Source of the DNA: Hwanghaeella grinnelliae
GTDB lineage: Bacteria; Pseudomonadota; Alphaproteobacteria; UBA8366; Aestuariispiraceae
Length of the DNA: 64,000 nt
Direction: 5' to 3'
NCBI RefSeq assembly: GCF_004005845.1
Contig: NZ_SADE01000004.1
Span: 372,001 to 436,000 of the forward strand
This document shows positions 59 to 24,005 of the stretch, one piece after another. Made by a program: the position numbers and the translations under genes. Below the pieces are notes generated by a model. The model saw only the letters and a list, made by a program, of their open reading frames with translations. It was not told where the DNA came from and made no database searches. Each line of letters begins with the position of its first letter. Within the stretch, counting starts at the first letter, position 1.

Positions 59-78
59 ACTTTCTGTGGGTGGGGGAT

Positions 79-1734: not shown

Positions 1735-1750
1735 AGGGAAGCATAGGATA

Positions 1751-2401: not shown

Positions 2402-2412
2402 GAAAGGTGACC

Positions 2413-2451
2413 ATGGCGGTGGAATTGGTAGACGACGAAAAGGCGAGGTGA
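2413..2451 (+). CDS. 12-residue mini-ORF overlapping a tRNA-Leu-like fragment
   Basis: Between the membrane-protein and tubulin-like genes lies an ATG with a good upstream ribosome-binding site (GAAAGGTG). It opens a 12-codon reading frame, MAVELVDDEKAR, whose TGA stop overlaps the GAGGTG ribosome-binding site of the next gene. That layout suits translational coupling. Part of the same DNA (GGAATTGGTAGAC) resembles the D-arm consensus of bacterial tRNA-Leu genes, so it may instead be a chance or recombined fragment. Expression of the peptide is uncertain. Confidence 0.3.
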   Translation: MAVELVDDEKAR

Positions 2452-2457
2452 AATAAT

Positions 2458-4101: not shown

Positions 4102-4139
4102 TGCCGATTCAGTATCTTTTCCAGTAGCAGAGGAAAGTT

Positions 4140-7100
4140 ATGGCAACGTTTTTTGTGCACGAATTGAGGAATGACAAAGGTGGTCCGCCTGAAGGTGGCG
4201 TGGGCCGCTTTCATAAGCATGATATTGTGCACCTTGCTAACGTCGCTTCTCTCACCAAAGACACGAAACGTACCGACGACGCATTTCGCGGGATAGGAAA
4301 CGTGTGGGCGAGGATCATTGATTTCCATGATGCGTTGCAGAGTAAAGATGAAAAATTGCGCAAGCCTGCTGTGCGCCTTTGGAGGGGCCTAATAGCGTTG
4401 TTAGCGGTAAGTCAAATTCGACAGTTTGGTGAGGTTCATGTTGCGGAGTCAATTTTCGGCTCCAAAAAGGAGGAAAACCCAATTGTAAGTATTGCTGCCA
4501 AACAGGCGCCTGCATTCATGTATGGGCAGACAGAGGCGGCAGATTTACCATCGGAAAATGTCAAACTTGGAGCGTTTTTCCTGGAAAATAGAATTGTTGC
4601 ATTATTGAATCCTCACCTCCTTGTGTTGCCGAGCGAAAACATTTTCGACCTGCTTGAAACTTTGGCACCGAAAATTGGTTGGATAAAAGGAAACCTGGAC
4701 CATCCGGCGGATAAGGTTGGTTTATATGAACTGTTTGAAGATTTTCTTGCGCCTGGTGCGGCGTCCGTCGTTGATATTGCTGTTGTCAAACATTTTGTTC
4801 AGTCAATTTATGACATCCGTGTCAAACAATTGGATGATGCGAAGCTTGATCAGGACCTCGTGCAGCGTCTTCTGAATGAATTTAATTTGGAGTTGAACGA
4901 TCATTTAGACAACAGAACTATTAATTTGCCAGTTGTTACGGACAATAAACTACGAAAAAAAATTAGTGATTCTCTTGGTTTTCCTGATGCCAACGAAATA
5001 AAGTGGGTGTCCGGTTTTAAGAAAATATATTCAGATACGTTGTTGATTGGGCGAGACGCGAAGTCCCCGTTCGTGAATGCTGTGTTTTTCGATCCAGCAA
5101 TGGCGCAAAATGTCAGTTTGGGAAGTGAAGAAGATCTGCTTGTAGTAGGCCCCTACACGTTAGGCGCGTTAAATAAACTGGAATCCGCATTTAGAGCTGA
5201 AAGTACAATTAATTGCTTACGGAAGGGGATGCAGACTCTAGTAGTAGGTGAGCAGAACAAGGGTGACGACGGTGTTGGGCAGATTTTTACTCTCGATGAC
5301 ATTTTTGCTAACAAATTGGTGATTTTTACCAGCGGGTGCGTACAGTCACCAATGCCAAGTCGCGCTAGCAACTTCCTCTTACCAATCACTCGAACCGCTC
5401 TCGATTTTTTGGATCCAACCTATGCGAATGAATGGTTCAAAATAGAAACTGAGCCGGAAGAAGCAACAAGCAGGTCAGGCGAAAGGTCAGTTACTGCGTC
5501 GATTATATTGCAGTTAGGATCAAATATCGACGATGCAATTGTTACGTGGGAGATTAGCAAGAAATATAGTGTCGAAGACGGAACACTGATTGTCGGTGTG
5601 CCAAGGCCCTCAGTACTGGCGGTTGAACCGGGTATTAATGCGGCGTACTGGAGAAACTATATAACCTTCGCGTGCGGTGATTTTACGCCAGCTGATGCAA
5701 GCGATGACGGATCTTACGTTAGTTTGGTGAGCGACGTTTTTACGCCGGCTATGGCGTCTAAGTCCGCGTCGAAAATTGATGAGGACAGATATTGGCATAA
5801 GCAAACGAAGGTAGGCGTAGACCCTACTGATATTTGGTCCAATCACCGCATGGATTTAGGGCCTATTCGCTCGTCATCCCAAAAAGGCAAGGAAGTGTTG
5901 CGATATTTTCGAACACAGGAATTGCCCGAGGCTTTCGAAGTGAATGTTCTTCACGTCGAAGTGAATAGCAACCTATTTGTTCCGATTGCCAATGGCATAG
6001 TTCCTTTCGGTGCGCCGCCAGAGCCAGGGTTGCAAGCAAGTCAAGCGGAATGTGTGATTGCGTTTGATTTCGGAACAACGAACACGATGATTGCAATAGC
6101 GGTGCGTCAAAGAAACGCTCCTTCACCACTGAAAAAACCTAAAATAGTATCTAGCACTCTGATTTTAGATGATTACTTGAGCCAAGCAATGGTCGATCCA
6201 GAATCTGCGTCAAATGCCCGCGTCAATATTGTACTTAGTAAGTTTTTCCCGGCAAGAAACTTAAATTATCCAATGCCTTCCGTAGCTGTTAAGACTGTTT
6301 TACCAGTAAATGATCCGGACGGAGCAATCGGTAGCCAAGGAACGTACGAAAATTCGATACCCTTTTCGGCGAATAGAATTCAGTTTTTTCCGACACGTGT
6401 ATTTCCTGCTCAAGGCGAAAATACAGAAAGGGATACGGTTTCGTTACTGAGAGAAGTAGCTGAAGACGTAAAGTTCCTGACAGAGAAGGATCCATCCATA
6501 GCGCACTACTCTAATCTAAAATGGAGCGATATAACGGACAGCAGAAATCGGGATGTTGTTCTTGGGTATTTCATTCATCATTTGTTTCACATTTCGCTCA
6601 CTCAAACACAGTATGACATTTCGCCAGAGAGTATAAAGTGGGTTTTTACGTATCCCCGTGCCATGAACAAAAGCCAAAAAGAACAACTTCAACGTCTGTT
6701 TGAAGAAGCAGTGGCAAAAGTATTAAATCAGCAAACTGTCTCACCGGACGGAAAACACAAGAAGAAGCATGAGGTGGAAGTTCGTTATGCGCAGGAAAGC
6801 CAAGCGTTGGCTGCTTACCGGCGAAAACACCCTTCATTTAATAACAAGGTGAAGTCAGTTGTGGTAGCCATCGACATTGGCGGGCAAACTTCTGATATTG
6901 CGGTATTAAAAAACGGACACGCTATTTGGCATCAATCGTTAATGGTTGGCGGGCGTGGTGTTCTGGTTGAATACTTGGCAAATCATCTGAGTGACCTCCA
7001 CGACTTGTTAGGCGACCTAAAATTAAAATCCCACCCCCTAGGACCGCTGATGGAATTCCTTAGATCAGGATATGCCGACGAGAATAGAAGGAACAGGGAA

Positions 7101-8054
7101 CACGATATCGGAAGTTCCGGATATTTGCGGCAAAAAATACTAGAATCACTGGAGGTGTTTCTCGCCAGTCCCGCGTTTGCAGCCATCTTCGAAGAATATA
7201 GAATACGTATAACTTCGTCACAGCTTTTCCAGGAAGTATCAAAACGGGCGAGTGCCACTCTGGCCGTAATCCTTTACTATGTATCCAAAGTTTTGAAACA
7301 GTTAGATATGAACAAGGATGGAGCAGATGGCGCGCCGCTAGAGGTGCTATTGTGCGGCAGGGGCAGTTTAATCTTTAGGAATTTCTGCAGGGTTGGAGTG
7401 GAAGAACATGAAGACGATCACGAGATGCGTCCAATTCTTCCTGATGACTTGGACAAAGCTCTATCAATCGCGTTTAAGGAAGCCGAACTGAAATGGACTA
7501 AAGATAGCATCAGTTTTTCTGAGCATCCGAAAGAAGAAGTGGCTTTGGGTGCTGCTTTGGGTTGGGAAACATTCAAGTCGGATACTTATTCGGGTGGGGA
7601 CAAAATTGAAGAGCGATTTCCACAAACAGATAAGTTTGTGCTGTCAAATCCACGGGGGAAGAAAAGCAAGGACGTGTTAAAGGCTGCTTTCACTGGTGGG
7701 CTAAAGTTGGATGACTTTGATGACATTGAGGTAGAAAAAGTTGATTTGAGCGAGACGTTTAAGTTTCTGGACTCAATTGGTGAAGTGATACCCTTCAAAC
7801 AAGCTTTGGGTAGTTCATCTGACAAGGTTAAGCTCAATAGGAATTACCAAGATGATTTGGAGCAAGCCGTTCGTGATCGGGTCACCAAGGTAGTAGGGGA
7901 GTATTCGGATGGACGAACGAACAAACCACAAAACGGTGGAGCAGCAACCGACAAGTTGGACTACGTGGAATGGCTACAACCTTTATCAATTTTTGCATTG
8001 TTAGAGATATTGGACCACTGGGATGAATTAAGGACAGGGAACTATACTCCGTGA
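4140..8054 (+). CDS. Large actin/Hsp70-fold ATPase, SrfB-like
   Basis: A 1304-residue protein. Its C-terminal half carries the actin-superfamily nucleotide site: phosphate-1 motif FDFGTTN (D643-N648), phosphate-2 motif AIDIGGQTSD (910-919), and an adenosine-type CGRGS (1072-1076). The first ~630 residues and the last ~150 were not recognised. The size and the internal position of the ATPase core resemble proteins annotated as virulence factor SrfB, so 'SrfB-like' is a reasonable working name, not an assignment. No signal peptide is seen, so it is likely cytoplasmic. It has its own AGAGGAAAG ribosome-binding site and its stop overlaps the next start by four bases. An actin-fold ATPase beside a tubulin-fold GTPase in one operon is the striking point. 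Confidence 0.75.
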   Translation: MATFFVHELRNDKGGPPEGGVGRFHKHDIVHLANVASLTKDTKRTDDAFRGIGNVWARIIDFHDALQSKDEKLRKPAVRLWRGLIALLAVSQIRQFGEVHVAESIFGSKKEENPIVSIAAKQAPAFMYGQTEAADLPSENVKLGAFFLENRIVALLNPHLLVLPSENIFDLLETLAPKIGWIKGNLDHPADKVGLYELFEDFLAPGAASVVDIAVVKHFVQSIYDIRVKQLDDAKLDQDLVQRLLNEFNLELNDHLDNRTINLPVVTDNKLRKKISDSLGFPDANEIKWVSGFKKIYSDTLLIGRDAKSPFVNAVFFDPAMAQNVSLGSEEDLLVVGPYTLGALNKLESAFRAESTINCLRKGMQTLVVGEQNKGDDGVGQIFTLDDIFANKLVIFTSGCVQSPMPSRASNFLLPITRTALDFLDPTYANEWFKIETEPEEATSRSGERSVTASIILQLGSNIDDAIVTWEISKKYSVEDGTLIVGVPRPSVLAVEPGINAAYWRNYITFACGDFTPADASDDGSYVSLVSDVFTPAMASKSASKIDEDRYWHKQTKVGVDPTDIWSNHRMDLGPIRSSSQKGKEVLRYFRTQELPEAFEVNVLHVEVNSNLFVPIANGIVPFGAPPEPGLQASQAECVIAFDFGTTNTMIAIAVRQRNAPSPLKKPKIVSSTLILDDYLSQAMVDPESASNARVNIVLSKFFPARNLNYPMPSVAVKTVLPVNDPDGAIGSQGTYENSIPFSANRIQFFPTRVFPAQGENTERDTVSLLREVAEDVKFLTEKDPSIAHYSNLKWSDITDSRNRDVVLGYFIHHLFHISLTQTQYDISPESIKWVFTYPRAMNKSQKEQLQRLFEEAVAKVLNQQTVSPDGKHKKKHEVEVRYAQESQALAAYRRKHPSFNNKVKSVVVAIDIGGQTSDIAVLKNGHAIWHQSLMVGGRGVLVEYLANHLSDLHDLLGDLKLKSHPLGPLMEFLRSGYADENRRNREHDIGSSGYLRQKILESLEVFLASPAFAAIFEEYRIRITSSQLFQEVSKRASATLAVILYYVSKVLKQLDMNKDGADGAPLEVLLCGRGSLIFRNFCRVGVEEHEDDHEMRPILPDDLDKALSIAFKEAELKWTKDSISFSEHPKEEVALGAALGWETFKSDTYSGGDKIEERFPQTDKFVLSNPRGKKSKDVLKAAFTGGLKLDDFDDIEVEKVDLSETFKFLDSIGEVIPFKQALGSSSDKVKLNRNYQDDLEQAVRDRVTKVVGEYSDGRTNKPQNGGAATDKLDYVEWLQPLSIFALLEILDHWDELRTGNYTP

Positions 8055-9742
8055 CACGCAGATTGAACAAACGTGTAAGGGGGGCGATAATTTCTATCGT
8101 AGCATTGTTCCTGTCTTTAATTCTTGGGTCGGCGCAGGCACAATCATATATTCAAATTTCAAAATTTCGCGGAGAAGTCGGTCAGTCTGTTTGCGAGACT
8201 GATGGTGCGAATGTGCTCGTAGCATTGTTAAATGTTTTACGGAAAGGAGGGCAAATCATTTTCAATGCTACTCCGAGATCAGACGATAGGGTGAAAAGTT
8301 GGACCTTAGGTCAAGTTATCACGGAGTCACAGATCCAAGAGCAGCTTCAAGAAAATCACAAAGATTTTCAAGAATGGATGAACAGTTGCGCGGCGGATGC
8401 CTCAACTCACGCACAGTTTGAAAGCCTTTCAAACGCGATAGAGGAATTTTTAGAAGCAAGTACTACTAGTAGAACAGGCGCAGAATTGCAAAATGTGGCG
8501 AACGCAATTGAAACGCTTTTGAACGGAGATGCGCCTCGAACAATCCTCGATGAAAGGAATTCGGGTTCCGAAGCAAATGGTATTGAAGCAGTAATTTCCC
8601 TGACATTGAAGGCGAGGTCGGAAGCCATTGTTCAGCAGCCCGAAGAAGGGGGGAGCCATACACTTGTCAAAGACCTGTCTGACGTAAAAGCACAAACCGA
8701 AGATATCCGCCAGTCGTTGGAAGCTAGGTGGACCGAATTAGCTTCAACTGGAGTAGAGAATGGTAACAACATAAAACTATTACGGAACGAATTATCCGTT
8801 TTGGTTAAAATGGCAAGTAATTTGCAAAAGGACTTATTAAAAATTGAGAAGATGCTTGAATTGCAGATCTCAATAGATGAGCCGAACGATAGCGAAGGAG
8901 CCATTATGGGCCAGATAGGAGACGTATTCACATCGGTGTTGCTAATGTTGGTATTGTTTGTATTCGGTCTTTGGGCTCATAGGTTTATTCGCTACCGGGC
9001 GAAGTTAGATCGGGTTTCTCAGGATGTAGCTCAGAAATTTGAAGACGTCGAGTGCCGCTTAGATGAGCAACTCGCAGCGTTTGGCGACAACATGACAAAA
9101 AGCGCCGAGCAGATCCAGGAGGTTTGTAGATACCTTGAGTCTTTCGTTGAATCGTTACGCGCCGACCTAATTGAGGAAAAAGCGGCTATCGAAAGAAACG
9201 TTGCCGGAGCCCAGGTTCTTCCAAATAGTGGTGTGTTGAGGGGCCAAGATCGCGTCACCGGCGGTCAAGAACTCAACAATGGGGTACATGCTGACAAACA
9301 AAGCGCGCATAGAACCTCTGTTCCCGAATATGCGGATTTAGTGTCCTTTGCGGACGATGTAACATCTTCGTTCAATCGTTGTAAAAACAGAAGAGACTTT
9401 GAGCAATTCTTGAAAGCATATAAGCACCAACAGGTTCGTCGTAACAAAAAAGCGGCCGAAAATGTACAACTCGTCGAATCTGAAGAGCCTCAAGACAGTG
9501 CTGATCTTGGTTCGTTTTTTGTTCTAATGGGGGGCTTTGATGACGAGATTTTAATACCGTCTTGGAATCATTACACACATCAGAGGAATTTAGGTGCCGG
9601 CGATGGCGCCTTCCCTGGTTTGGAGGGCGTATTCTCTATTCGCCGGAATGTGGGGAGTAAATGCTTTTTAATAGAACCTGCTAGAGTTAGAAAGGCATCA
9701 GCTTTTTTTCGGATTGTGAAGTTAGGGAGAATAGGAATATAG
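8051..9742 (+). CDS. Secreted/membrane coiled-coil protein (last gene of operon)
   Basis: A 563-residue protein starting at GTG in a GTGA overlap with the preceding stop. It has an N-terminal signal sequence (residues ~10-31, ending AQAQ), a periplasmic region rich in Gln/Glu/Leu helices (~95-285), one membrane span at ~292-312 and a helical, probably cytoplasmic, segment (~320-395) before a C-terminal domain of about 150 residues that was not recognised. This topology would let it bridge the periplasm, where the VWA-like lipoprotein sits, and the cytoplasmic tubulin- and actin-like proteins. The overlap with the ATPase gene implies translational coupling and stoichiometric synthesis. Function is unknown. 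Confidence 0.7.
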   Translation: MTRRLNKRVRGAIISIVALFLSLILGSAQAQSYIQISKFRGEVGQSVCETDGANVLVALLNVLRKGGQIIFNATPRSDDRVKSWTLGQVITESQIQEQLQENHKDFQEWMNSCAADASTHAQFESLSNAIEEFLEASTTSRTGAELQNVANAIETLLNGDAPRTILDERNSGSEANGIEAVISLTLKARSEAIVQQPEEGGSHTLVKDLSDVKAQTEDIRQSLEARWTELASTGVENGNNIKLLRNELSVLVKMASNLQKDLLKIEKMLELQISIDEPNDSEGAIMGQIGDVFTSVLLMLVLFVFGLWAHRFIRYRAKLDRVSQDVAQKFEDVECRLDEQLAAFGDNMTKSAEQIQEVCRYLESFVESLRADLIEEKAAIERNVAGAQVLPNSGVLRGQDRVTGGQELNNGVHADKQSAHRTSVPEYADLVSFADDVTSSFNRCKNRRDFEQFLKAYKHQQVRRNKKAAENVQLVESEEPQDSADLGSFFVLMGGFDDEILIPSWNHYTHQRNLGAGDGAFPGLEGVFSIRRNVGSKCFLIEPARVRKASAFFRIVKLGRIGI

Positions 9743-10002
9743 AGTATCTTTGTAAGTTGGCTTATTTTGGAGTTTCGGATTTCAAAGGTTTTCAGCCCTA
9801 TTCAGTATTGGTCGCCGACTAGGTTTCGTATTTTAGTTTTCCGACGTTCACTTTGCGGTGTATTTGGGCATAAATGCGCGCTAACTTTGGCGAGGCATGG
9901 CATATAGTTGTGCCAGTGTCGAAAGATATAATGCATAAATATAGTAATTCATTATTCTAAGAACCCGACAATGAGTTGTGCTTGCACGTAAGCAGGCATC
10001 CA

Positions 10003-10020
10003 ATCTGCGGTGGGAGCAGA
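10003..10020 (+). repeat. Candidate left attachment core (copy of tRNA-Pro anticodon arm)
   Basis: The 18 bases ATCTGC-GG-TGGGAGCAGA match the anticodon stem-loop of the tRNA-Pro gene at 45912-45929 (ATCTGC-TT-TGGGAGCAGA) at 16 of 18 positions. This lies about 100 bases outside the integrase stop codon, where an attL would be expected, and anticodon arms are known recombination cores for tyrosine integrases. The flanks show no convincing remainder of the tRNA, which is a weakness. Sequence match seen directly; role inferred. Confidence 0.5.
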
Positions 10021-10077
10021 TAGGGCATTGGTCTAAGCACTTCAAAACCCGCAGCCTTCTATCGCTCCCGGACCCAG

Positions 10078-10102
10078 GTATGACGCGAAGTCTGACGCGA
10101 CT
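10078..10102 (+). repeat. Candidate integrase arm-type site, left end
   Basis: The stretch reads TATGACG-CG-AAGT-C-TGAC and contains a near-direct repeat of TGACGCGA. The same pattern, TATGACG-TA-AAGT-A-TGAC, occurs at 45770-45790, inside the right end of the proposed element. Paired repeats just inside both ends are typical of integrase arm-binding sites. Binding is inferred. Confidence 0.35.
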
Positions 10103-10117
10103 TCCTTGGGGTCGGAT

Positions 10118-11203
10118 CTACGGCGAATTCTTGATCCAGGTGTCAGAAACTTCCTCCATCGCATCCCGCAATTGATCCGTGTCGGCATGGGCATACTTGG
10201 CGGTCGTGGCAATGTCGCTGTGGCCCAGGAGGCGCTGCGTGAGTTTCAGGTTGCCGGTGGTGGCCAGGAGCCTCGTAGCGGCCGTGTGACGGTTGTCGTG
10301 CCAGCGATAGTCCTCGATGCCGGCGGCTTTCAACGCGCGTTTCCAGTCGCGGCGCCAGCCCGTCAGGGAGAAGGGGTAGCGTTCGCCCTTGACCCGTTTG
10401 TTCTCCAGCCGGGTGCGTCGGCACTCGTAAGTGAAGACGTGGATCGGATGCTGCCCGCGTTGCCGTGACAGGATCGCTCTGATCTCGTTTGTGATGGGGA
10501 GCACGAGCGTTGCTCCACCCGGCCTGTGGGACTTGGTTCTCAAAGTAATAGTGCCGCCGGGCAAGTCGACCATGTTCCATGTGAGGCCAATCGCATTGGA
10601 GAGGCGCACGCCGGTGGCCAGAGAGAAGGAAACGACAGGACGGAGATCCGGCCACAAGGCCTTCATGAGCCGATCTTGCTCCTCTGTAGACAGGGATCTG
10701 ATCCGCTCTTGAGGTTCGGGGAGTTTATGTTTGCCGAATTTGGGCAACCGGCCGACGTCGTGGCCCCACTCGTCTCGCGCTGTTCGAAGGACGCGGCGCA
10801 GAAGCTCGATCTCCCGATTGACCGTTGCAGGCGCCGGCAACGTCCCGCGAATTGTCTTTTCACTTCGGCGCTTTGAGACATAGGTAGACAACAAAGCATC
10901 AGGGATATCCTTGATCAGAATATCCCCCAGTCCATCTTTGAGGCGCTCGAGCTGGTAGAACTCTGTGTCCGCGTTGGCGTGATACTGTGATTTCTCGACC
11001 AGATACCGACCGAAGGCTTCATTCAACCTGACGCCCTGCAGGCCTCTGGCATAATTGGTCTCTGCCTCCTGCCTTAGGCGGCGTTCTTCCTTCTCTGCTT
11101 CGCGCTTCGTTTTGCGCTTCGTAGAGCCTCGAAATCGTGTTCCCCCGACGGTGAAGTCGTAGGTCCAGTAAGGCGAGCGGGGGGGAGGAGGGTAGACGGA
11201 CAT
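10118..11203 (-). CDS. Tyrosine recombinase (site-specific integrase)
   Basis: A 361-residue phage-type integrase. The start is the ATG giving MSVYPPPP. An N-terminal arm-binding-like segment (residues ~8-55) is followed by a SAM-like core-binding domain (~58-150) and the catalytic domain (~170-345). The tetrad can be read: R200 (TGVRLSN), H302 and R305 (WHDNRH), H328 (LLGHSD) and the nucleophile Y337 (TAKYAH). It should catalyse integration and excision of the element ending at tRNA-Pro. Its start lies inside the upstream excisionase-like gene (overlap of about 130 bases in another frame), so both are probably made from one transcript. It is transcribed towards the left boundary, with its stop about 100 bases from the candidate attL. 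Confidence 0.93.
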   Translation of the reverse strand: MSVYPPPPRSPYWTYDFTVGGTRFRGSTKRKTKREAEKEERRLRQEAETNYARGLQGVRLNEAFGRYLVEKSQYHANADTEFYQLERLKDGLGDILIKDIPDALLSTYVSKRRSEKTIRGTLPAPATVNREIELLRRVLRTARDEWGHDVGRLPKFGKHKLPEPQERIRSLSTEEQDRLMKALWPDLRPVVSFSLATGVRLSNAIGLTWNMVDLPGGTITLRTKSHRPGGATLVLPITNEIRAILSRQRGQHPIHVFTYECRRTRLENKRVKGERYPFSLTGWRRDWKRALKAAGIEDYRWHDNRHTAATRLLATTGNLKLTQRLLGHSDIATTAKYAHADTDQLRDAMEEVSDTWIKNSP

Positions 11204-11400
11204 GCGGCAACTCTGTGTTGGTCGATGAAGTTGGTGATATCGCTGGGGCGAAAGAGGTACCGATTGTCGAAGTTCACGTGACCGATCTTGCGTTCGGCAG
11301 CGAGGCGTTTGAGCTTGCGCGCAGACATTCGGAGGAGCGGTGCCGCTTCCTCCGTTGTCATCAACAACACCGAATTGTCGTTGTTTGCGTCCACAATCAC
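11074..11400 (-). CDS. Excisionase-like helix-turn-helix protein
   Basis: A 108-residue protein. Residues ~15-60 have the short winged-helix pattern of excisionase/MerR-like binding proteins: TTEEAAPLLRMSARKLKRLA, then a wing with NRYLFRPSDITNFI. The C-terminal part is basic and Ala/Arg-rich. It lies immediately upstream of the integrase gene and overlaps its start, the usual place for a recombination directionality factor. It may bend DNA at the attachment sites and also repress its own promoter. Family assignment is by pattern only. Confidence 0.7.
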   Translation of the reverse strand: MIVDANNDNSVLLMTTEEAAPLLRMSARKLKRLAAERKIGHVNFDNRYLFRPSDITNFIDQHRVAACPSTLLPPARLTGPTTSPSGEHDFEALRSAKRSAKQRRKNAA

Positions 11401-11420
11401 TGACCTGCTGGTTCGTACGT

Positions 11421-11460
11421 TTCACTTCGACGGATTGGAACTGTTCCGTCGCTCAGTGAA
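11421..11460. promoter_or_regulatory. Inverted repeat upstream of excisionase/integrase operon
   Basis: CGACGGA and TCCGTCG face each other across TTGGAACTGT, with outer TTCACT and AGTGAA arms also complementary. The element starts about 20 bases before the excisionase start codon, a good place for an operator controlling integrase expression. No T-run follows on the minus strand, so a terminator is less likely. Confidence 0.4.
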
Positions 11461-11673
11461 ACTATTTTACAACGCAGACCCGAAAGTAATTTCCCATAAA
11501 ATAATACCGTGCACCTTGCTCGTCGCGGGGACGGCGCCGTGAGCGTCATTTGGGCGAGGTGAGATTTGGAACAGGAGCTCTTTACCGTTGGCGGAAATCG
11601 CAACGGAGCTGGAGCGAACAATCTTGAGAATTAGAGAGCGAGCGACACTGCGCTTGCGAGGACAGGGCTGGCC

Positions 11674-12123
11674 CTACGCTTCTACTACGCGTGAAAATTT
11701 TGCGAAACTAATTATGCCGTCGGAGAGAAACGGCGCCAGAACCATCTCCACCGCGCGCCTCAATTCGGCTGCCGGCATTGGCTTGCTGGACCCTGTCAGG
11801 CCCTCGTAGTAGGCGGTAACGAGCGTCAGGATGATCAACTGAGTGACGCGATCGAGCGCTTCGTCTTCGCTCTTGGTGTTCTCGAAGTACTCCTCGAAGA
11901 AATCCAAATTCACGAGGATGATCGGCTCTTCGATCGTTCCCGAGACATAGCTTATGCCGACGGCGTCATTCCCGCTGGAGGCCGGTGAGTGCTCATCATA
12001 AATCTCGATCTGAAAACTTTGGAAGAACTCGTTGGGTTCCAGCGCTTCGAGGACACGCTCTCCGGCCGCGGAGAGGATATCTTCGATCGGAAGTTCGGCG
12101 GATTGAGAACCAGTATGCGGCAC
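11674..12123 (-). CDS. Hypothetical protein, acidic, 149 residues
   Basis: The GTG start has a GAGGT ribosome-binding site 7 bases upstream. The protein is acidic (many Glu/Asp) with a mixed alpha/beta look: a strand-rich middle (SFQIEIYDE, VGISYVSGTIEEPIILVNLDFFEEYF) and a helical C-terminal half. No signal peptide or membrane span is visible. No family recognised. It sits between the excisionase and the excalibur-domain gene, all on the same strand, in the maintenance half of the element. Confidence 0.6.
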   Translation of the reverse strand: MPHTGSQSAELPIEDILSAAGERVLEALEPNEFFQSFQIEIYDEHSPASSGNDAVGISYVSGTIEEPIILVNLDFFEEYFENTKSEDEALDRVTQLIILTLVTAYYEGLTGSSKPMPAAELRRAVEMVLAPFLSDGIISFAKFSRVVEA

Positions 12124-12284
12124 GCGTGGGACCTCGGTAGATGACAGGTGCTCTGCCTAACATGCTGCGGCACAGGGCGTCACGCATTGAGGCCACGTTT
12201 GTTTTAATGAGAAGGGTTTTCCATTCGTCTAGTGCAGATGCCTTCAATTTCGATCCGCGTCCGGACCGTCCCCGCTACCACGCC

Positions 12285-12629
12285 TTATCTGTATTCTTCG
12301 CACGCCAATCCGTCGTTGTCGCGATCGTGTCGGTCATAGTATCCGGGTGCGTTACGGCGTGCCGGCGCCAGGCCGACGGCATTCGCATGTGCGCAGTTGG
12401 GGGCGGCTGCGATGTGGCGAAGCAGAGTACTCACTGCCCAGCCGCGGGCATCGGCTGCGTGCAACGTCCCTGCTGCCGCAAAACACAGAAGCGCAACAGC
12501 TGCAAACATCTTCCACAACTTTCCGACTGGGAAGGGAGAGCGCGGCAATGCCTTTGCTGTGACGCGGCTAAAACGCCGCCTCAATTGTTCGGCGTGGTGG
12601 TCTGGATCGTTTGTCTTGAAACCAGCCAT
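12285..12629 (-). CDS. Excalibur-domain secreted protein
   Basis: A 114-residue protein. Residues ~41-60 form a hydrophobic segment (MFAAVALLCFAAAGTLHAAD) like a signal peptide or membrane anchor. Residues ~78-114 match the excalibur calcium-binding pattern: NCAHANAVG, APARRNAPGY, then DRDNDGLACE, with the Dx(D/N)xDG loop intact. The internal Met at residue 41 would place the signal peptide at the N-terminus and may be the true start (12509). Excalibur domains occur on extracellular or envelope proteins, often next to nuclease domains, but none is present here. Role in the element unknown. Confidence 0.7.
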   Translation of the reverse strand: MAGFKTNDPDHHAEQLRRRFSRVTAKALPRSPFPVGKLWKMFAAVALLCFAAAGTLHAADARGWAVSTLLRHIAAAPNCAHANAVGLAPARRNAPGYYDRHDRDNDGLACEEYR

Positions 12630-12999
12630 ATGTTCGGACTCAGTCTTCGGGGTTCGCTAGTTGTTAAGTGGCTTGGATTTTCCGTGCGAGAGATTTCAAA
12701 CCTAGTTTTGGCTAAATGCTGTTCAATCTTGGCCGAGGTGGTCTCCGGCCGAAACAGAATGAACGCTCTTATGTCACGTTCGATCCGGGCCGGTAATCAC
12801 ATTGGCGGAAACTTAGTTGAGGTCGGCATTGGACCAAGCAAATCAGGACTGCGACACTGAGAAGGCCGCCGGAACGAAATGCCGTAATTATCTTTGAATT
12901 TCCGCGAGGTTTTCCGGTCCTATCTGACCGGGCTCGGACTTCACTTGCCGAATATAGTATAGTGGGCCTCTATTTTTGGCAGTTCTAGAGGGAGTTCCG

Positions 13000-13516
13000 C
13001 CCGAAGGGCGCGAAAAAAGTAGGATCAACGATCCGTCATGTGTGTTGGGTGAATACGTTCCCCTGAAATGCGGTAATGAAGTATTGATTTGTCGTATGAC
13101 AAGGAGCTTCAAAAGCTAGACGTTTGACGTCTGATGACCTCTGATGACCTATAATTTTTCGGCCATTAGCACGGAATAACAGCCGCTTGAAGGCTCGAAA
13201 AATTGCGAAATTCATTATTATTTATTTTCTATTTTTTCCGATCACGTAAGTGCCTGCCTTAGCTCACTTTTGTGCGAAAAAATTATATGCTATCAAGTGC
13301 CATAAGGTGCCGTGACATGCCATGAGGTGCCATAAGGTGCCGTGACATGCCATGAGGTGTCATAAGGTGTCATAAGGTGTCATAAGGTGCCAAAACTTGT
13401 TACCTCAAACTTTGATCTCAGACGGCATTTCAATACTCCACTACCGTTTCGTAGTGAAATGTAATCACCCAACACACACGACGGATCATTTTTCCTAGTT
13501 TTTCGACCCCTTCGGG
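13000..13516. other. Origin-like region: long inverted repeats flanking tandem repeats
   Basis: Two imperfect inverted arms, 13000-13086 and 13431-13516, face each other. Their best cores, 13030-13052 and 13465-13487, agree at 22 of 23 positions. Between them lie a 10-bp direct repeat (CTGATGACCT twice, 13131-13150), an AT-rich patch (~13205-13245) and the ten-unit tandem array listed separately. Just outside, TAGTGCATC is repeated at 13543-13561. The whole stretch from ~12630 to 13624 lacks a supported gene. Iterons, an AT-rich zone and inverted arms are the ingredients of a replication or transfer origin. No initiator gene was recognised nearby. Confidence 0.55.
13294..13393 (+). repeat. 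Ten tandem 10-bp repeats (iteron-like)
   Basis: Ten head-to-tail units with consensus (A/G)AGGTG(C/T)CAT. Units 2-4 and 5-7 also form a 30-bp higher-order repeat, nearly identical over its length. A period of 10 bp places each unit on the same helix face, as in protein-binding iterons. Unlike CRISPR there are no spacers. The region is non-coding on both strands. Confidence 0.85.
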
Positions 13517-13624
13517 AAGAGGGCACTGAAAAATAACAAAAAATAGTGCATCTTAGTGCATCACTAAAGGGTTCAGCCCTTTATCTGGCCAGAGACGACA
13601 GAAAACTCCTGTAGAAATTCAAAA

Positions 13625-13918
13625 TTAATTATCGGGTTTTTCCGTTTCTGGAGGCTTTCCCAGCCAATCGCGGTTCAACCTATTCAACGGCCAAATTATC
13701 TCGGTCATTTCCATCGCGCCGTAAGCGAAGGAAGCGGCTTTTCGAAGCATGCGCATTTCATGATGAGGGAGGGTCGAAGGTGCCTGGAGGGTAACAATCG
13801 ATTCAACGCGCGAAAAATGCCGAAAGATGTCTCCCTTGATGTGGCATGGTTCCGTGCTGGTGTGTATTCGGCTATCATCGCGGATGAGTTTGAGGAGCAT
13901 GCGGGGAAGATTGATCAT
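13625..13918 (-). CDS. Small hypothetical protein divergent from Xre antitoxin
   Basis: A 97-residue reading frame starting at an ATG with AAGG close upstream. The sequence (INLPRMLLKLIRDDSRIHT and so on) shows no known domain, signal peptide or membrane span. Its ribosome-binding site overlaps the perfect palindrome shared with the divergent Xre gene, so it could be co-regulated. It might be a chance reading frame. The downstream end borders the origin-like region. Confidence 0.4.
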   Translation of the reverse strand: MINLPRMLLKLIRDDSRIHTSTEPCHIKGDIFRHFSRVESIVTLQAPSTLPHHEMRMLRKAASFAYGAMEMTEIIWPLNRLNRDWLGKPPETEKPDN

Positions 13919-13923
13919 AGACC

Positions 13924-13945
13924 TTGCGATCCGGGCGGATCGCAA
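13924..13945. promoter_or_regulatory. Perfect 10-bp palindrome, candidate Xre operator
   Basis: TTGCGATCCG and CGGATCGCAA are exact inverted repeats with a two-base spacer. The site lies between two divergent starts, 53 bases before the Xre antitoxin ATG. Autorepression by the antitoxin through such palindromes is usual in RES/Xre systems, so it is the likely operator. Palindrome seen directly; binding inferred. Confidence 0.6.
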
Positions 13946-13998
13946 CAAAAGACATAGTGAACAAGGACGTGCCGAACTAAGTATTTGTGGAATGTTTG

Positions 13999-14496
13999 AT
14001 GAAGAACGAATTGCCTAAGGTAGCCACAGAAGCTCAACAGGAACTCGGCGAACGCATCAGGGTCGCGCGCAAGGCGACCGGGCTGACGGCAGAGGAGTTC
14101 GCCCGCAGGTTCGGTGTGACCTCGAAGACCGTCCGCGACTGGGAGAAAGCGAGACGCGTTCCCCGCGCCAATCAAATCGTCATGATGGCGGGCATGCTGA
14201 ATGTCACCGCCCCCTGGCTGCTGGAAGGGCGTGAGTATGAACCGGATTGGCACGAGTATGAATACGTGGATGAAAATGATTACTTGGAAATAGAGTTGGA
14301 GCGCAGGCCTCTCCTAAAGGAACTCTACGAAAAGGCCAAAGAGGTTTTCCAGAACGAAAGTAAGGCTAAGGAGTGGATAGTCTCGCCCGCCTTGGCACTC
14401 TCCGGCCAAAAGCCCATCGACCTTGTCGCTACTGAACATGGGGCAGAGATGGTCGAGGACGTGCTCACGCGACTTGAGTACGGGGTTTATACGTGA
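13999..14496 (+). CDS. Xre/MbcA/ParS-family antitoxin
   Basis: A 165-residue antitoxin. Residues ~15-70 form an XRE-type helix-turn-helix (RIRVARKATGLTAEEFARRFGV, then TSKTVRDWEKARRVP). The C-terminal ~55 residues (KEWIVSPALALSGQKPID to the end) match the toxin-binding domain of the Xre-MbcA-ParS antitoxins. An acidic linker joins the two. The start chosen is the ATG with GGAA upstream; a GTG twelve bases earlier is possible. Its stop overlaps the RES toxin start (GTGA), so the pair is co-translated. It should neutralise the RES toxin by covering its active site and repress the operon through the palindrome just upstream. Confidence 0.9.
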   Translation: MKNELPKVATEAQQELGERIRVARKATGLTAEEFARRFGVTSKTVRDWEKARRVPRANQIVMMAGMLNVTAPWLLEGREYEPDWHEYEYVDENDYLEIELERRPLLKELYEKAKEVFQNESKAKEWIVSPALALSGQKPIDLVATEHGAEMVEDVLTRLEYGVYT

Positions 14497-14993
14497 TCCT
14501 GGACGCCGGTGGAAATCCTGAAACTCTCTCTGTCGCTTGGCGCATGGACAGACTGCAGCACAAGAACACATGGGATTCTGGCGAAGGCGCGTTTCTCGGC
14601 GGCGGCCGCTGGAACACCAAAAATGTTCGCGCGGTGTATTGCGCCCTCGACGCGGCAACCGCGATTCTGGAGGTCACAGTTCACAACGGTTTCGATGACC
14701 TCGACTCGGTCCCTCGCATTATGACAAAGCTGTCACTGCTGGAGGCTTCGTCGATCTACGTATTAAGGTCGGATGACGTCCCGAATCCCAATTGGCTCGT
14801 ACCAGCTAATCCAACGCCAAACCAGCAGCAATTCGGCAATGACCTCCTAGCGAAACATGGGGCGTTCTACGTGCAGAGCGTGGTCTCGAAGCACTCGTGG
14901 AATCTTGTCTTCCTGGCAGGTGAATTTGGTGAATATAGCTTGGTTTCGCAGGAGAAGTTTGCCCTGGACCCGCGTTTTGTGGTCTCGATTTGA
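14493..14993 (+). CDS. RES-domain toxin (predicted NAD+-targeting)
   Basis: A 166-residue RES-domain protein covering almost its whole length. Key parts are visible: the first Arg in AWR (R17), the glycine motif GGGRWN (36-41), the catalytic Glu in ATAILEV (E60) and a Ser in QSVVS in the C-terminal third. RES toxins are known to degrade or phosphorolyse NAD+ using a fold related to ADP-ribosyltransferases. It begins with GTG inside the antitoxin stop. In the element it would act as an addiction module or abortive-infection device. All expected residues are present, so activity is likely. Confidence 0.9.
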   Translation: MILDAGGNPETLSVAWRMDRLQHKNTWDSGEGAFLGGGRWNTKNVRAVYCALDAATAILEVTVHNGFDDLDSVPRIMTKLSLLEASSIYVLRSDDVPNPNWLVPANPTPNQQQFGNDLLAKHGAFYVQSVVSKHSWNLVFLAGEFGEYSLVSQEKFALDPRFVVSI

Positions 14994-15062: not shown

Positions 15063-15809
15063 TCAATGAAGCGCAGCATCGTCCGAATTGTGTAGCGGGC
15101 AGGCTGGGCAAAAGCTCGCCATCTCTGCATCACTCAGCCCGGAAACGCGCGCCAAAAGCGAATATAATTGCTCCTGGAAATAAGCATTCACTTCCTCAAT
15201 CGGATCACGCACCCTGAAAACAAAGTGGTCGTCTAGATCGACACCAAAAATGTTCAGGGGGTCCGGAAGTACGCGGACGCCATAATACGAGATCAGGCGC
15301 GATTCCACTAACTCGGGTTGGTGCCCAACAGATGCGCCGTAGCTTTTCAGTAGGCATTGAATGCTCAGAACATCTCGAAGGATCGAGCGCTTTTTCCCAG
15401 AATCGAACTCCCCATTGCCGCGCTTGAGTTCGTAGGCCCGCAAAGTCTTAACGCGTCGGTCGAACACGAACGCATCCACCTGAAGGGTGCGGGCGCCTGG
15501 CCGGTAGGGCATCTCAACTGGCAGCGAATTGCCTATCTCGGAGTTCCGGCTACTGACGACGTGGTCAACTTCGGACGGGATCTGAAACTTCGGCTCATGC
15601 CAGACGGTGAAGTAGTCACAGTCCGAAAGACGTTCCCTCAAAGACCGTTCCAGTATCGAGCCATGCCTCTTGTAGGCCGCACTAACGATGCTTGTAGCGC
15701 GTGAGTAGGTTTCCCCTGCGATAGGGTCGATGCGGAACTCCTTCCGCTCCAGGCTCGCTATGGTCTTGTCCACATGCGGCCGCATTCTGTCGATCAATGC
15801 TTCTGGCAT
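15063..15809 (-). CDS. PD-(D/E)XK nuclease-like protein
   Basis: A 248-residue protein with an AGGTG ribosome-binding site 5 bases before its ATG. Residues ~110-130 carry a plausible nuclease core: a strand with LQVDAFVF (Asp) followed by LRAYELKRG (Glu-Leu-Lys), the D-(x)n-ExK arrangement of restriction-like endonucleases. The C-terminal end has CPAC. No specificity domain was recognised. It is transcribed towards the RES toxin and ends 69 bases from it. A defence role is possible from context but not shown. Alternative: a DNA-repair or element-processing nuclease. Confidence 0.6.
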   Translation of the reverse strand: MPEALIDRMRPHVDKTIASLERKEFRIDPIAGETYSRATSIVSAAYKRHGSILERSLRERLSDCDYFTVWHEPKFQIPSEVDHVVSSRNSEIGNSLPVEMPYRPGARTLQVDAFVFDRRVKTLRAYELKRGNGEFDSGKKRSILRDVLSIQCLLKSYGASVGHQPELVESRLISYYGVRVLPDPLNIFGVDLDDHFVFRVRDPIEEVNAYFQEQLYSLLARVSGLSDAEMASFCPACPLHNSDDAALH

Positions 15810-16546: not shown

Positions 16547-16611
16547 GTACCCGTCCGGTGAACCCGCCCGCCAACGATACTCGCGGTAGGGCGGGTTCAC
16601 CGGACGGGTAC
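16547..16611. repeat. 23-bp perfect inverted repeat just before a start codon
   Basis: Arms 16547-16569 and 16589-16611 are exact reverse complements over 23 bases, separated by 19 bases. The right arm runs into GTTTTT and then, 9 bases on, the ATG of the ribbon-helix-helix gene. As RNA it would form a very stable hairpin plus U-run, like a terminator or attenuator. As DNA it could be an operator, a recombination site or a transfer-origin hairpin. Confidence 0.8.
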
Positions 16612-16619
16612 GTTTTTCT

Positions 16620-17180
16620 ATGCCTAAAGCCCCTAAAAAGAGGCGTGCCAAGTATGCCCCTCGAGGTGGAAGACGTATTCAGGTGACACTGTCAGAGGAC
16701 CTTCTTGGATCCGTCACGGAGGCAGCTGAGATCGCGAGTGTCACTCAGTCACACTATATCGCCCGTCGGCTGCAAGATGCGTTTGATCGCGACCAGCGCC
16801 CTGGCGATTTGAATGTCGACCATTTGCTCAAGGGCATAGAAGCTCTTTTTGAAAAGTACTTGGGGGGTGAGGTCTGTGGTCGAAGAAAGAGCGGTGGTTG
16901 GAGGCGAATGGACCAGACCGACCAATCCGAGCTGACTATGGACATTCTTACGGCAATGTCAGGTCTGCAAGTTCAGGTGTCTCGGTTAGCAGAGTCAGTT
17001 CAGGATTTGGCCCTTGCGCAATCTCAACTCCAGCTTGAGCTTCGACCTGCTCATGCTCGTACGGCGAAAGGGCTTCCTCCCATTTCAGGGCAGAATGCTA
17101 GGTCAGTTTCCACTCAACAAAAGTCAGGTCCGGAGCATTCGCGCACCGAGCCTGAACCGAGTTTCAAACCATCTTTCTGA
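16620..17180 (+). CDS. Ribbon-helix-helix DNA-binding protein
   Basis: A 186-residue protein with a very basic N-terminus (PKAPKKRRAKYAPRGGRR). Residues ~19-55 then fit the ribbon-helix-helix pattern: a short strand RIQVTLSEDL, then two helices LGSVTEAAEIA and TQSHYIARRLQDAF. Residues ~100-145 are helical, with coiled-coil character, and the tail is Ser/Pro/Gln-rich and probably unstructured. Such proteins act as plasmid regulators or relaxosome accessory factors (MobC/TraY-like). The perfect 23-bp palindrome immediately upstream could be its target. No ribosome-binding site stands out between the hairpin and the ATG. No relaxase was found in the window. Confidence 0.6.
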   Translation: MPKAPKKRRAKYAPRGGRRIQVTLSEDLLGSVTEAAEIASVTQSHYIARRLQDAFDRDQRPGDLNVDHLLKGIEALFEKYLGGEVCGRRKSGGWRRMDQTDQSELTMDILTAMSGLQVQVSRLAESVQDLALAQSQLQLELRPAHARTAKGLPPISGQNARSVSTQQKSGPEHSRTEPEPSFKPSF

Positions 17181-17369: not shown

Positions 17370-17678
17370 CTATTCATTGTTCCGTTGTCCAGGTGGGTGT
17401 CGAAATCTGACTCCTTCACCGGCACTATCAGGTCCGATGAATATTATGCCGGCCTCTTCCAACGCCGTTTGAACAGCTTGCAAATTCTTAGCTGAAGCGG
17501 ATGGAACACCTTTGGCTAGTTCCATCCGCCTGATGGTCGCAACCCCCAGACCACTCTGTTTCGCTAACGCATCAGCAGAGAGTTTTAGCAGGGTGCGTGC
17601 TGCTCGAATTTGATCAGATGTAATCATATTATTATCACAAACGATATCAATGATCTTTCCTTTGAGGTTCGCTGCCAT
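17370..17678 (-). CDS. XRE-family transcriptional regulator
   Basis: A 102-residue regulator. Residues ~24-75 form a helix-turn-helix (IRAARTLLKLSADALAKQSG, then GVATIRRMELAKG), followed by SAKNLQAVQTALEEAGIIFIG, an ending common in small alphaproteobacterial XRE regulators. No clear ribosome-binding site precedes the first ATG. An internal Met (residue 18) would still leave the whole DNA-binding domain. It diverges from the 17744 gene across a short region with an inverted repeat, so it probably controls both genes. Confidence 0.8.
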   Translation of the reverse strand: MAANLKGKIIDIVCDNNMITSDQIRAARTLLKLSADALAKQSGLGVATIRRMELAKGVPSASAKNLQAVQTALEEAGIIFIGPDSAGEGVRFRHPPGQRNNE

Positions 17679-21382: not shown

Positions 21383-21433
21383 ATGACCAAACAAAGTCAG
21401 ACTGCAATTAATTGCCTGCGTCCAACGCCATGA
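21383..21433 (+). CDS. 16-codon leader ORF coupled to zorA
   Basis: An ATG with GGGGAG 11 bases upstream opens MTKQSQTAINCLRPTP. Its TGA overlaps the zorA ATG in an ATGA junction. zorA has no ribosome-binding site of its own at that ATG, so ribosomes finishing the leader would restart on zorA. This is a layout for translational coupling. It is also compatible with leader-dependent control. Confidence 0.45.
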   Translation: MTKQSQTAINCLRPTP

Positions 21434-22923
21434 CAATTGGGGAATTTTCTGTTGTCGTCGGCGATGAAGCTGGACGGCTTATACTGGCTCTAGCGAACTT
21501 AATTGTCGCGGACCATTGGCCAGGCCTGATCAGCGTACTGTTTCTTGCCGCAGCCGCGTTTGTTGGCGGCCTCATTTGGTATCAATCGAGAGCATACGCC
21601 GTTGCGTATTCAAGAGCGCGTTCCTCAATCGTAACGTCGCGGAAGAGCCTGCAGAATCTCGACTTAACAGATATTGAAGCACGGCTGAATGCCGAGAAGA
21701 GTGGAGCAGCAAGAAAACTTGCAAACGCATTCAAGGAGTTCCGAGAAACTCTCGTGGTGGTTGGTCGAGGTGATTCTACTGAGATACGCAATTCAATCAG
21801 GCCATCGGCATTCCTGAACGCGGATGAACTAGGCTTCTCATTGAAGGCTTATCGATTCTTTCCCGGGGTATTTGTTTCGTTCGGTCTGTTCCTGACGTTC
21901 TTAGGACTTGTAGCAGTACTTTCGTCTACGGCAGACATATTGCCTGACGGACAGAGTGCCGACCAGTCTGCCACAATGAATGCTTTGCGCGTTCTGCTCG
22001 CGAAAGCGTCTGCGAAGTTCACAATCTCGCTGACTGGATTGCTCTGCTCTATCGCGTTGAACATTTGGCTGCGAAGCCGAGTTCATCGAATCGAGAAAGA
22101 AGCGGACGCGCTTGCAGTAGAACTCGAACGCCACATCGACTTCATCAGCCTTGAAGGTCTCGCCGAACAGCAACTCCGAGCGGTCAAAGATCAAACAGCA
22201 GATATGAAGGCGCTCATAACCGAAATGACCGTGAAATTGTCCGAACCGCTCAACAAGGTTTCGGAGAGTTCAATGGAGAACATCGGTGTGTTGGTAAAGG
22301 AATTAGGCAAAGACCTGACATCGGGACTCGGCAAATCACTTGAGTCGGTCTCTGGCAGGATTGACGCCGCTGCGACCGCACTTGGATCAGTTGGCGCCAG
22401 CTTGGAACAAGCCGCGCAACACTTTGACACCTCATTGAAAGAGTCGACGAGTTCGTTGGATGCATCTGTCCGCCGACTTGAAGAGGTTTCCCAACAGTTA
22501 ACAGTGGCGGGCCAAACGGTCAGCGAAGCAACGCCAGCGGTTCTGGAGTCCATCAAGGAAACGAACGCTCATAGCCTCAAGGTCGCGGAAGGGGCGGCGA
22601 CGATGGTCAATGCCGCAAAGTCGACCATTGCTGAGGAAAGGGAAACCGTCACCCAAGCAATGAATACCATCCAAGAACTGATCAGGTCTTTTGAGAGCCG
22701 CGCTGCTGCCTATGACGGACAACTTGAGAAGGCGTTTCAAACCTATCAGGCTGAGGTCGCGAAAACTATCGACCGACTAGAATTGCATGGAGACGGGGTC
22801 CAAGAGCGCTTCGCCGAGGCGCTCGGCATTCTTCAAACCGTGATTGAGAATGCGAAGCCCTTTGAGCCTGAAAGTGGAACGCAAGCAAGTGGTTTGAACG
22901 CGTCTAGTGAGGCCACGGAGTGA
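21430..22923 (+). CDS. zorA: Zorya ZorA, MotA/ExbB-like membrane motor protein
   Basis: A 497-residue protein, using the ATG coupled to the leader ORF (a TTG 18 bases earlier is the alternative). It has a membrane span near residues 27-48, then a cytoplasmic stretch, then two more spans (~138-165 and ~195-215) in the MotA/TolQ/ExbB arrangement. The last ~260 residues form a long helical, Ala/Glu/Ser-rich tail. In type I Zorya, ZorA and ZorB make a proton-driven membrane motor with a long cytoplasmic tail, thought to sense phage attack and recruit the effectors. The GTGA junction with zorB and the gene order zorA-zorB-zorC-zorD support the call. Confidence 0.93.
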   Translation: MTIGEFSVVVGDEAGRLILALANLIVADHWPGLISVLFLAAAAFVGGLIWYQSRAYAVAYSRARSSIVTSRKSLQNLDLTDIEARLNAEKSGAARKLANAFKEFRETLVVVGRGDSTEIRNSIRPSAFLNADELGFSLKAYRFFPGVFVSFGLFLTFLGLVAVLSSTADILPDGQSADQSATMNALRVLLAKASAKFTISLTGLLCSIALNIWLRSRVHRIEKEADALAVELERHIDFISLEGLAEQQLRAVKDQTADMKALITEMTVKLSEPLNKVSESSMENIGVLVKELGKDLTSGLGKSLESVSGRIDAAATALGSVGASLEQAAQHFDTSLKESTSSLDASVRRLEEVSQQLTVAGQTVSEATPAVLESIKETNAHSLKVAEGAATMVNAAKSTIAEERETVTQAMNTIQELIRSFESRAAAYDGQLEKAFQTYQAEVAKTIDRLELHGDGVQERFAEALGILQTVIENAKPFEPESGTQASGLNASSEATE

Positions 22924-24005
22924 GACATCCGTTTCGACGCCAACGTGTGGAAGAGGAAGAAGAGTCCGTCTTCATATCGATGACGGACATGACTGTTGGG
23001 TTCCTGTTCATTGTCATCATCCTTCTGGCCTTTTTCGCTACCCAGATTACGCCGGAAGATTCGGTCCCCAAACGGCTTCTGGACGAAAGGGACGACCAAA
23101 TCGCCGTCCTCCAGCAGCGCTTGCTGCTTTTCAAGGATCTGATTGATCAGGTCGATCAGGATGCCATTGGCAGCATTCAACAGCGAATTCTGGAGCTCAA
23201 ACGCGAAAAGCGTGAAGCACTCGAGAAACTGCATCAACGGGACGCTATTCTTGCGCTTTTGCGCGAGGAACTGGGGGCCGGTCCGAAAGACGACCTTCAT
23301 CGCAAAGTTCTCGAGCTGCGGGCAGAAATCGATCGTTTGCACGAGTTGTTGCGCGAGAGTGATACGGAGAATCCCATTGCCCGTTACAATACCCTTGCTG
23401 CTGTCGATTTGGCTGCTTTGCTGTCGCGCGTTCGCACGCGGGTCAAGAAGCTCGATGAGCAGATCGATATCCAGATCTCACGTAAACAGGATGCCTTGCA
23501 GTTCAGGGGGGACGGTTTGTTCGCCCATGCTAGTGACGAGCCCTCCAGTGCTGGGCGCGAAAAGATGCGTCGGATAGCAGAGGTTTTGGGCGAAGAGATT
23601 GGGTGTTTTACCGTTGGCAGCAGCGCCATGAATGAAGTTTGCAATCCAAACGCGGTGGCGATCGACGCAATACAGATTGAAGGGCATACCGATAGCGACG
23701 GCGCAGATGTTTACAACATGGGGCTTGGCGCTCGCCGGGGTGCATCGATCTATTCGGTCATGCTGTCGGAGCATCCGAGTCTACTCGATTTCCATAATAT
23801 CCAGGGACAGCCTGTTCTGTCCGTAGCGAGTTATGGTGAAGGGCGTCCAATTGCCGATGAGGATTTGGAAGGCGGCAAGGACGCTAATCGCCGAATAGAC
23901 ATTCGATTCATCATGTTCGCTCCGGTCCGGGAGGAGGACATTCCGCTCAGTGTCGGTGATCTTGTGCGAGTCCGAGACCTGTTAGCAGGGAGGACAGCAC
24001 GGTGA
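22920..24005 (+). CDS. zorB: Zorya ZorB, MotB/OmpA-like stator protein
   Basis: A 361-residue partner of ZorA starting at GTG in the zorA stop. A short cytoplasmic N-terminus with an acidic cluster is followed by one membrane span (~18-42) carrying the MotB-type Asp (D23, in SMTDMTVG), a long helical periplasmic linker and a C-terminal OmpA-like peptidoglycan-binding domain: IEGHTDSDG (~253-261), then GARRGASIY and NRRIDIRF. The Asp is the expected proton-carrying residue. The domain should fix the complex to the cell wall. It also ends in a GTGA overlap with zorC. Confidence 0.95.
   Translation: MRHPFRRQRVEEEEESVFISMTDMTVGFLFIVIILLAFFATQITPEDSVPKRLLDERDDQIAVLQQRLLLFKDLIDQVDQDAIGSIQQRILELKREKREALEKLHQRDAILALLREELGAGPKDDLHRKVLELRAEIDRLHELLRESDTENPIARYNTLAAVDLAALLSRVRTRVKKLDEQIDIQISRKQDALQFRGDGLFAHASDEPSSAGREKMRRIAEVLGEEIGCFTVGSSAMNEVCNPNAVAIDAIQIEGHTDSDGADVYNMGLGARRGASIYSVMLSEHPSLLDFHNIQGQPVLSVASYGEGRPIADEDLEGGKDANRRIDIRFIMFAPVREEDIPLSVGDLVRVRDLLAGRTAR

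Follow-up and report, generated by a model that had tools for sequence, protein, structure and literature searches.

The window, as we call the whole 64-kb stretch of DNA analysed here, contains an imperfect inverted duplication of ~807 bp (12857-13663) which, to judge from its layout, could be a cis-acting, iteron-type and origin-like site for protein loading that belongs to an integrase-bearing defence island and is either still used or a relic. We put this reading forward tentatively. The element lies in the ~1 kb of DNA between an Excalibur-domain gene (12285-12629) and an ORF at 13625-13948. An earlier note had described an origin-like non-coding region at 12998-13562; the structure itself is present, but those limits were too narrow, as the DNA at 12857-12929 and 13587-13663 forms a further pair of homologous outer arms. 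The origin-like layout was borne out in that two opposed iteron sets surround the AT-richest DNA sampled in the window.

Arm alignments reveal blocks that are identical in kind and order on both arms, around an axis at ~13218.5 that is set by a pair of TATAATTTTT motifs. In the outer block, the left arm (12857-12929, forward strand) aligns to the right arm (13587-13663, reverse strand) with 54 of 73 paired columns identical and three gaps, a score of 54 compared to a maximum of 40 among shuffles (0/500 as high). The last 39 nt of the right outer block overlap the 3' end of the ORF at 13625-13948. The inner block pairs 13000-13130 (forward strand) with 13402-13516 (reverse strand), with 95 of 113 paired columns identical and six gaps. 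It includes the long inverted arms noted previously, which measure 86 nt (13014-13099 and 13418-13503) and are 77% complementary, and the core GATCCGTC[A/G]TGTGTGTTGGGTGA, identical at 22 of 23 positions between 13030-13052 (forward strand) and 13465-13487 (reverse strand). No match to this core with up to three mismatches occurred in 100 shuffles of the window. The outer and inner arm pairs share a common centre. As the two iteron sets described below differ by eight units (80 nt), the inner arm pairs do not centre on the axis but 40 nt further right, at ~13258. Between the outer and inner arms the DNA aligns weakly (142 of 1000 shuffles equally good), and outside 12857 and 13663 the similarity between the arms falls to noise level (487/1000 shuffles). 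Inverted arms of at least 60 nt and 70 bits occur once in the 64-kb window, in four rows (three loci) in 2.28 Mb of related-integrase loci, and not at all in 100 kb of flanks. Identity from arm to arm is patchy: the best 23-column stretch has 22 identical columns, which was matched by 183 of 5000 column shuffles, and the best 60-column stretch has 50, matched by 80 of 5000. This weakly suggests that some blocks have been retained while others have decayed.

The left iteron set (13121-13150, reverse strand) consists of two copies of CTGATGACCT (13131-13150) and one weak unit (13121-13130), and the right set (13287-13396, forward strand) of ten units (13297-13396) and one weak unit (13287-13296), with the common form TGYCATRAGG. 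Both the ten-unit 10-bp tandem array and the doubled CTGATGACCT had been recognised before and are present, and the doubled motif on the left corresponds to the ten-unit array on the right. Tandem Repeats Finder reports a match of 79% at period 10 for the array (13297-13396) and of 97% at period 30 for 13297-13369, a higher order in part of the array. The two sets are oppositely oriented and after either of them TATAATTTTT comes next toward the middle; when left iterons with TATAATTTTT were locally aligned to right iterons with TATAATTTTT, six of 500 shuffles scored as high. The axis is itself defined by the adjoining TATAATTTTT pair, so the equal distance at which the two sets lie from it adds no independent support. 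Seven exact matches to TGYCATRAGG lie within the element, and elsewhere in the 64 kb there are five with up to one mismatch.

The AT-rich patch that had also been reported corresponds to 13198-13237, in which 35 of 40 positions are A or T, a content unequalled among 40-mers sampled every 5 nt across the window. It is a candidate melting site centred 1 nt away from the axis. Among 3000 random palindromes of the left half's composition, only 25 held a 40-mer with at least 35 A/T, and 314 had their AT maximum within 1 nt of the axis; the richness of this patch is therefore unusual, its position at the axis is not. A global alignment of 13150-13217 with 13219-13287 was not equalled by any of 1000 shuffles, mostly due to the TATAATTTTTCG block. 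Once this block is left out, the innermost 56 + 56 nt give 145 of 2000 shuffles as good in the global test and 443 and 406 of 1000 in local tests, and their ungapped identity is 13/56 at the stated axis and 23/55 one nt off (the best of 13 offsets). The symmetry of the innermost 112 nt (13163-13274) is weak. With a global signal that stems mostly from TATAATTTTTCG and local tests at chance, the duplication may or may not extend to the axis.

No coding signal was detected in the element as far as position 13624. Within it, ORFs of 47, 48 and 74 aa have codon scores of the non-coding kind, although the codon score is a weak method and some genes with family matches also score low. The 47- and 48-aa ORFs of the two arms are similar (DPSCVLG...) and were considered as a pair of small proteins. 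This was rejected on the basis of codon scores, of arm differences that fall on the three codon positions in numbers of 7, 8 and 10 (four synonymous and 13 non-synonymous codons), and of tblastn, in which one of the two found no match in plasmids.

A tyrosine integrase (10118-11203, reverse strand; PF00589, 1.4e-22; phrog_1) and an excisionase-like HTH_17 protein (11074-11400, reverse strand; PF12728), which overlaps the integrase start, are encoded 2 kb from the element. An annotated excisionase also overlaps the integrase in phage phiLM21, as does, by eye, an HTH-like ORF in the genome with the closest integrase among 385 searched (G057, 49%). The organisms in which the best integrase relatives occur suggest an alphaproteobacterial host. 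Nearby, a 149-aa ORF (11674-12123) has strongly coding codon use and belongs to no Pfam, PHROGs or NCBIfam family. The element lies directly 3' of the 107-aa ORF at 13625-13948 (reverse strand; 97 aa from ATG). The codon use of this ORF is coding-like (5.8% of null segments score equally high). Searches for relatives in 13 further genomes of the family, plasmids, PDB sequences, NCBIfam, PHROGs and Pfam gave none. A structure model of its 97-aa form was unusable (mean pLDDT 52.9).

To the right, a Pfam-recognised Xre antitoxin/RES toxin pair (13987-14993, forward strand) adjoins the element, and type I Zorya, Eco57I-type methylase, helicase and Mrr genes are also found on this side. The Zorya system (21412-28527) is complete according to PADLOC (ZorA, B, C and D). 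A 248-aa protein encoded at 15063-15809 has no family match, has relatives in nine other genomes of the 385 and looks nuclease-like by eye only. Directly before the weak RHH ORF at 16620-17180 there is a perfect 23-nt inverted repeat (GGGCGGGTTCACCGGACGGGTAC and its complement, 16547-16611), possibly an operator or terminator. At the left end of the window, a five-gene operon (37-9742) of ~44-48% GC (2-kb steps) has no PADLOC match and weak Pfam matches only (EutA/FtsA-type in 4140-8054, Zw10_N in 8051-9742); it may be an undescribed defence or membrane system.

In 2-kb steps, GC content is mostly 0.58-0.64 left of -8 kb and 0.44-0.60 from there to +76 kb, followed by 0.60-0.68 for ~12 kb and then 0.56-0.60, so that composition gives no clear right limit of the island. 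No direct repeats of at least 15 nt that could mark island ends were found between 9600-13000 and the DNA from 60 kb to the left to ~104 kb to the right. For 12600-14000 the direct matches amounted to one chance-like match of 14 nt (13652/27462).

The window lists 181 ORFs of at least 80 aa, many of them overlapping, of which 49 distinct ones were covered by the Pfam scan and 16 by PHROGs. No replication initiator (Rep), primase or relaxase was recognised in either set, in line with what the earlier note had said of initiators and relaxases, and no phage packaging or interference gene (terS, capsid) either. No rep or primase gene stands beside the element, and the gene at the expected rep position is the 107-aa ORF with no matches. 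Within 12600-13700 there is neither a DnaA box (TTWTNCACA) nor an IHF-type site. A genome-wide search with the single relaxase profile PF03432 was negative (0/1), the control search being positive in 1 of 14 known genomes.

A search for the same repeats in related elements, as the earlier note had proposed, was run and gave no convincing relative among genomes, plasmids, phages and viral contigs. The element is single copy in its own genome (5.32 Mb, 7 contigs), its own two arms aside, and matches only itself in 98 genomes (its own and 97 other relatives) and in 43 genomes of the order, its own included. Across 385 genomes of the class, again including its own, 48 had matches at E <= 0.05, namely the element itself and 47 genomes with short matches (best E 0.002), many in the AT-rich middle and a few at the CCCTTCGGG end of the right arm. 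These were judged to be chance as far as examined (19 re-scored, three read by eye). The element had no match at E 0.01 in 72,556 plasmids or in phages, where the left arm also had none at E 10, and no viral contig matched its three patterns. The array pattern was found in two of the 385 genomes, as itself and one weak case; an array-like match in G405 (three copies, three mismatches, near a contig end) is too short to count as a relative. Close to a contig end in L245 (19600-19737) there are three CATGACATTT-like repeats, with a possible group II intron start after them.

First integrase-based scans for relatives also returned nothing. A five-integrase profile then supplied 80 + 80 loci, and 172 loci were scanned, 160 of them from this set; none had a like sequence at E <= 0.1, the best being 0.14 in three loci. 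Tandem arrays with a period of 7-14 and at least four copies occur in several integrase loci, such as 11 bp x 5.4 beside the integrase in L112 and 10 bp x 4.4 in L125. None of these arrays resembles the element in sequence, and neither L112 nor L125 appears in the output of the long-arm scan. In G057 no such array was found in ~40 kb, and no inverted repeat of at least 30 nt within 2 kb across 32 kb. A long imperfect palindrome is also found next to a related integrase in another locus (L116, 2081-2463); the short repeat CGTCATTCCCGCG occurs several times in it.

Under the origin-like reading, a DNA-binding protein would load side by side on the 10-bp repeats, which are about one helical turn apart, on both arms and face to face, and the AT-rich DNA between the iteron sets would then melt and allow entry of replication enzymes. 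The island would also excise. The initiator may have been lost, which would make the element a relic of a replication module, or it may be supplied in trans by a helper. In favour of this reading are the succession of iterons and TATAATTTTT on both arms with the AT maximum of the sampled window between them, and the confinement of the TGYCATRAGG form to the element. Against it stand the missing Rep, primase and relaxase among the scanned ORFs, the missing DnaA box and IHF-type site, and the lack of any relative found and of direct repeats of at least 15 nt at the island ends. An AT maximum near the axis is also common in random palindromes, the innermost 112 nt are weakly symmetrical, and dispersed repeats yield long imperfect inverted repeats as well, as in L116. 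We see only a slim chance for the more specific version, a working mirror-image iteron origin without its own initiator, at which the initiator of an incoming phage or plasmid would act in trans to start replication. That the element might replicate or transfer by a non-standard route, as suggested previously, is speculation, and loss of the initiator or a helper in trans would be simpler.

The closest rival, which we regard as nearly as likely, is a decayed inverted duplication, or a single MITE-like palindromic element, with no present function. Here, an inverted copy would have been made of ~300 bp of DNA, the final codons of the 107-aa ORF among them, after which the arms drifted and the right 10-bp run grew by slippage. 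Homology that spans outer blocks, inner blocks and iterons, with a right end 39 nt into a coding-like ORF, fits such an event, as does a right array that grew as a 30-bp triplet with a 97% match. The weak patchiness of arm identity, the frequency of axial AT maxima in random palindromes, the long inverted repeat of L116 with one short repeat in several places, and the fact that neither a relative nor a partner was found for the element point the same way. However, the element is a single genome copy, unlike MITE families, which have several copies per genome, and no target-site duplication was seen at 12857/13663 (by eye, the ends being blurred). Two opposed iteron sets and an unusually AT-rich middle would rather suit a functional plan.

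A partition (centromere-like) site or operator appears unlikely. In this case an RHH or HTH protein of the island would coat the 10-bp repeats and thereby segregate an excised form or control the neighbouring genes. A 10-bp spacing places the sites on nearly one helical face, and tandem repeats of ~10-11 bp are typical of ParR/parC-type loci. Candidates for such a protein in the window are one with a weak RHH_5 match (16620-17180) and two HTH proteins of the Xre type (13987-14496 and 17370-17678). However, the RHH match reaches 16.3 bits compared to the Pfam cut-off of 26, the flanking ORFs that were scanned include no recognisable ATPase of the ParM/ParA type, and sigma-70-like promoters number 0 in 12500-14100 compared to 1.6 in shuffles.

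A transfer origin (oriT) through which a helper's relaxase would mobilise the island (iOriT kind) is more doubtful still, and the transfer function that had been suggested earlier finds little support. Islands with an integrase, an excisionase and only an oriT are known (PMC5397120, PMC11389934), and PMC5397120 reports on a mobilisable one that carries a restriction system. In the conjugative plasmid pSMR1-7, unannotated DNA close to the relaxase operon also matches the core at 24 of 25 positions. This match has an E value of only 0.3, however, and is one of four records that the right arm retrieved from plasmids at E <= 10 (pSMR1-7, one Azospirillum and two Proteus). It was rejected as a link to an oriT and is probably chance, as the stretch varies in the nine that were aligned of ten related plasmids, in which the DNA to its right is near-invariant. 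The absence of a PF03432 relaxase from the genome, the one profile sought genome-wide, likewise argues against mobilisation. As a separate observation, ten roseobacter plasmids typed as conjugative (nine aligned) share a non-coding block that is conserved close to the relaxase operon (TGCTATCGGCACCAGG.TTGAGGG...GGACAGCTGGTGC; at 7880-8080 in L065, and in its relatives) and is a candidate cis-acting site.

Least probable is that the element is a gene for a structured non-coding RNA or gives a long double-stranded RNA. Both strands of 12998-13562 do fold much better than their shuffles (z = -11.0 and -10.7), but a long inverted repeat must fold, so that the strong fold of either strand simply restates the repeat. 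Mismatches of the wobble type are not evidently in excess between the arms (10 compared to 15 of 56, depending on the strand), and up to E = 5 the element matches no Rfam family.

Many defence islands carry an integrase and have no visible means of replication or transfer. Should the site prove to be a working origin, it would illustrate how an island of this kind could rely on a borrowed initiator for its copying. Its plan, with mirror-image iteron sets on either side of an AT-rich centre, would then provide a sequence-independent signature by which other islands could be searched. If such an origin were fired in trans, the island and its defence genes would be amplified only upon arrival of the helper. 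If the element is a mere decayed inverted duplication, it would serve as a warning that DNA which is no origin can also come to have iteron-like arrays and an AT-rich centre.

Compared to known systems, the element resembles MITE-like or dispersed palindromic elements, as exemplified by L116, in being non-coding and in having long inverted arms, but differs from them in its single genome copy, tandem iterons and AT-rich middle. It is unlike the Rep/DnaA-dependent oriV of iteron plasmids, as TTWTNCACA is missing from 12600-13700 and no Rep is recognised among the 49 ORFs scanned. With oriT-only islands of the MGIVflInd1 type (PMC5397120), it shares an integrase, an excisionase, cargo, a large non-coding region and the lack of an own relaxase; their oriT, however, mimics that of a named helper, and no convincing helper match was found here.

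Parallels in layout are found among replicating islands and satellites. Like the element, the oriV of SGI1 has iterons with AT-rich DNA next to them and lies close to an excisionase gene in an integrated island (PMC7433901). It differs in its iterons, four of 17 bp each, and in having a DnaA box and a neighbouring rep, none of which is seen here. PLE, the Vibrio cholerae satellite, encodes a RepA of the RepA_N family and has a functional iteron with 13-bp inverted sub-repeats (PMC7145576). There too, a repeat-rich non-coding region belongs to a phage-restricting integrated element, in which it is required for replication (PMC7145576); no RepA was recognised in our window. PICI origins invariably have an AT-rich region with an iteron set on each side and are located 3' of the initiator gene (PMC6092414). 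Differences from these origins are that a pri/rep gene is not recognised here, that the iterons are 10 bp long and uneven in number (3 compared to 11), that the entire 800 bp is an inverted duplication, and that no satellite packaging gene was recognised among the ORFs scanned; since an adjacent initiator is a defining feature that was looked for and not found, we do not class the element as a PICI-type origin. As far as its sequence goes, it nonetheless has, like the SaPI type (PMC6092414), an AT-rich region between two iteron sets, nearby genes for an integrase and an excisionase-like protein, and a position directly 3' of an ORF. The nearest described plan is that of the PICI origin, and the likeness is one of apparent layout.
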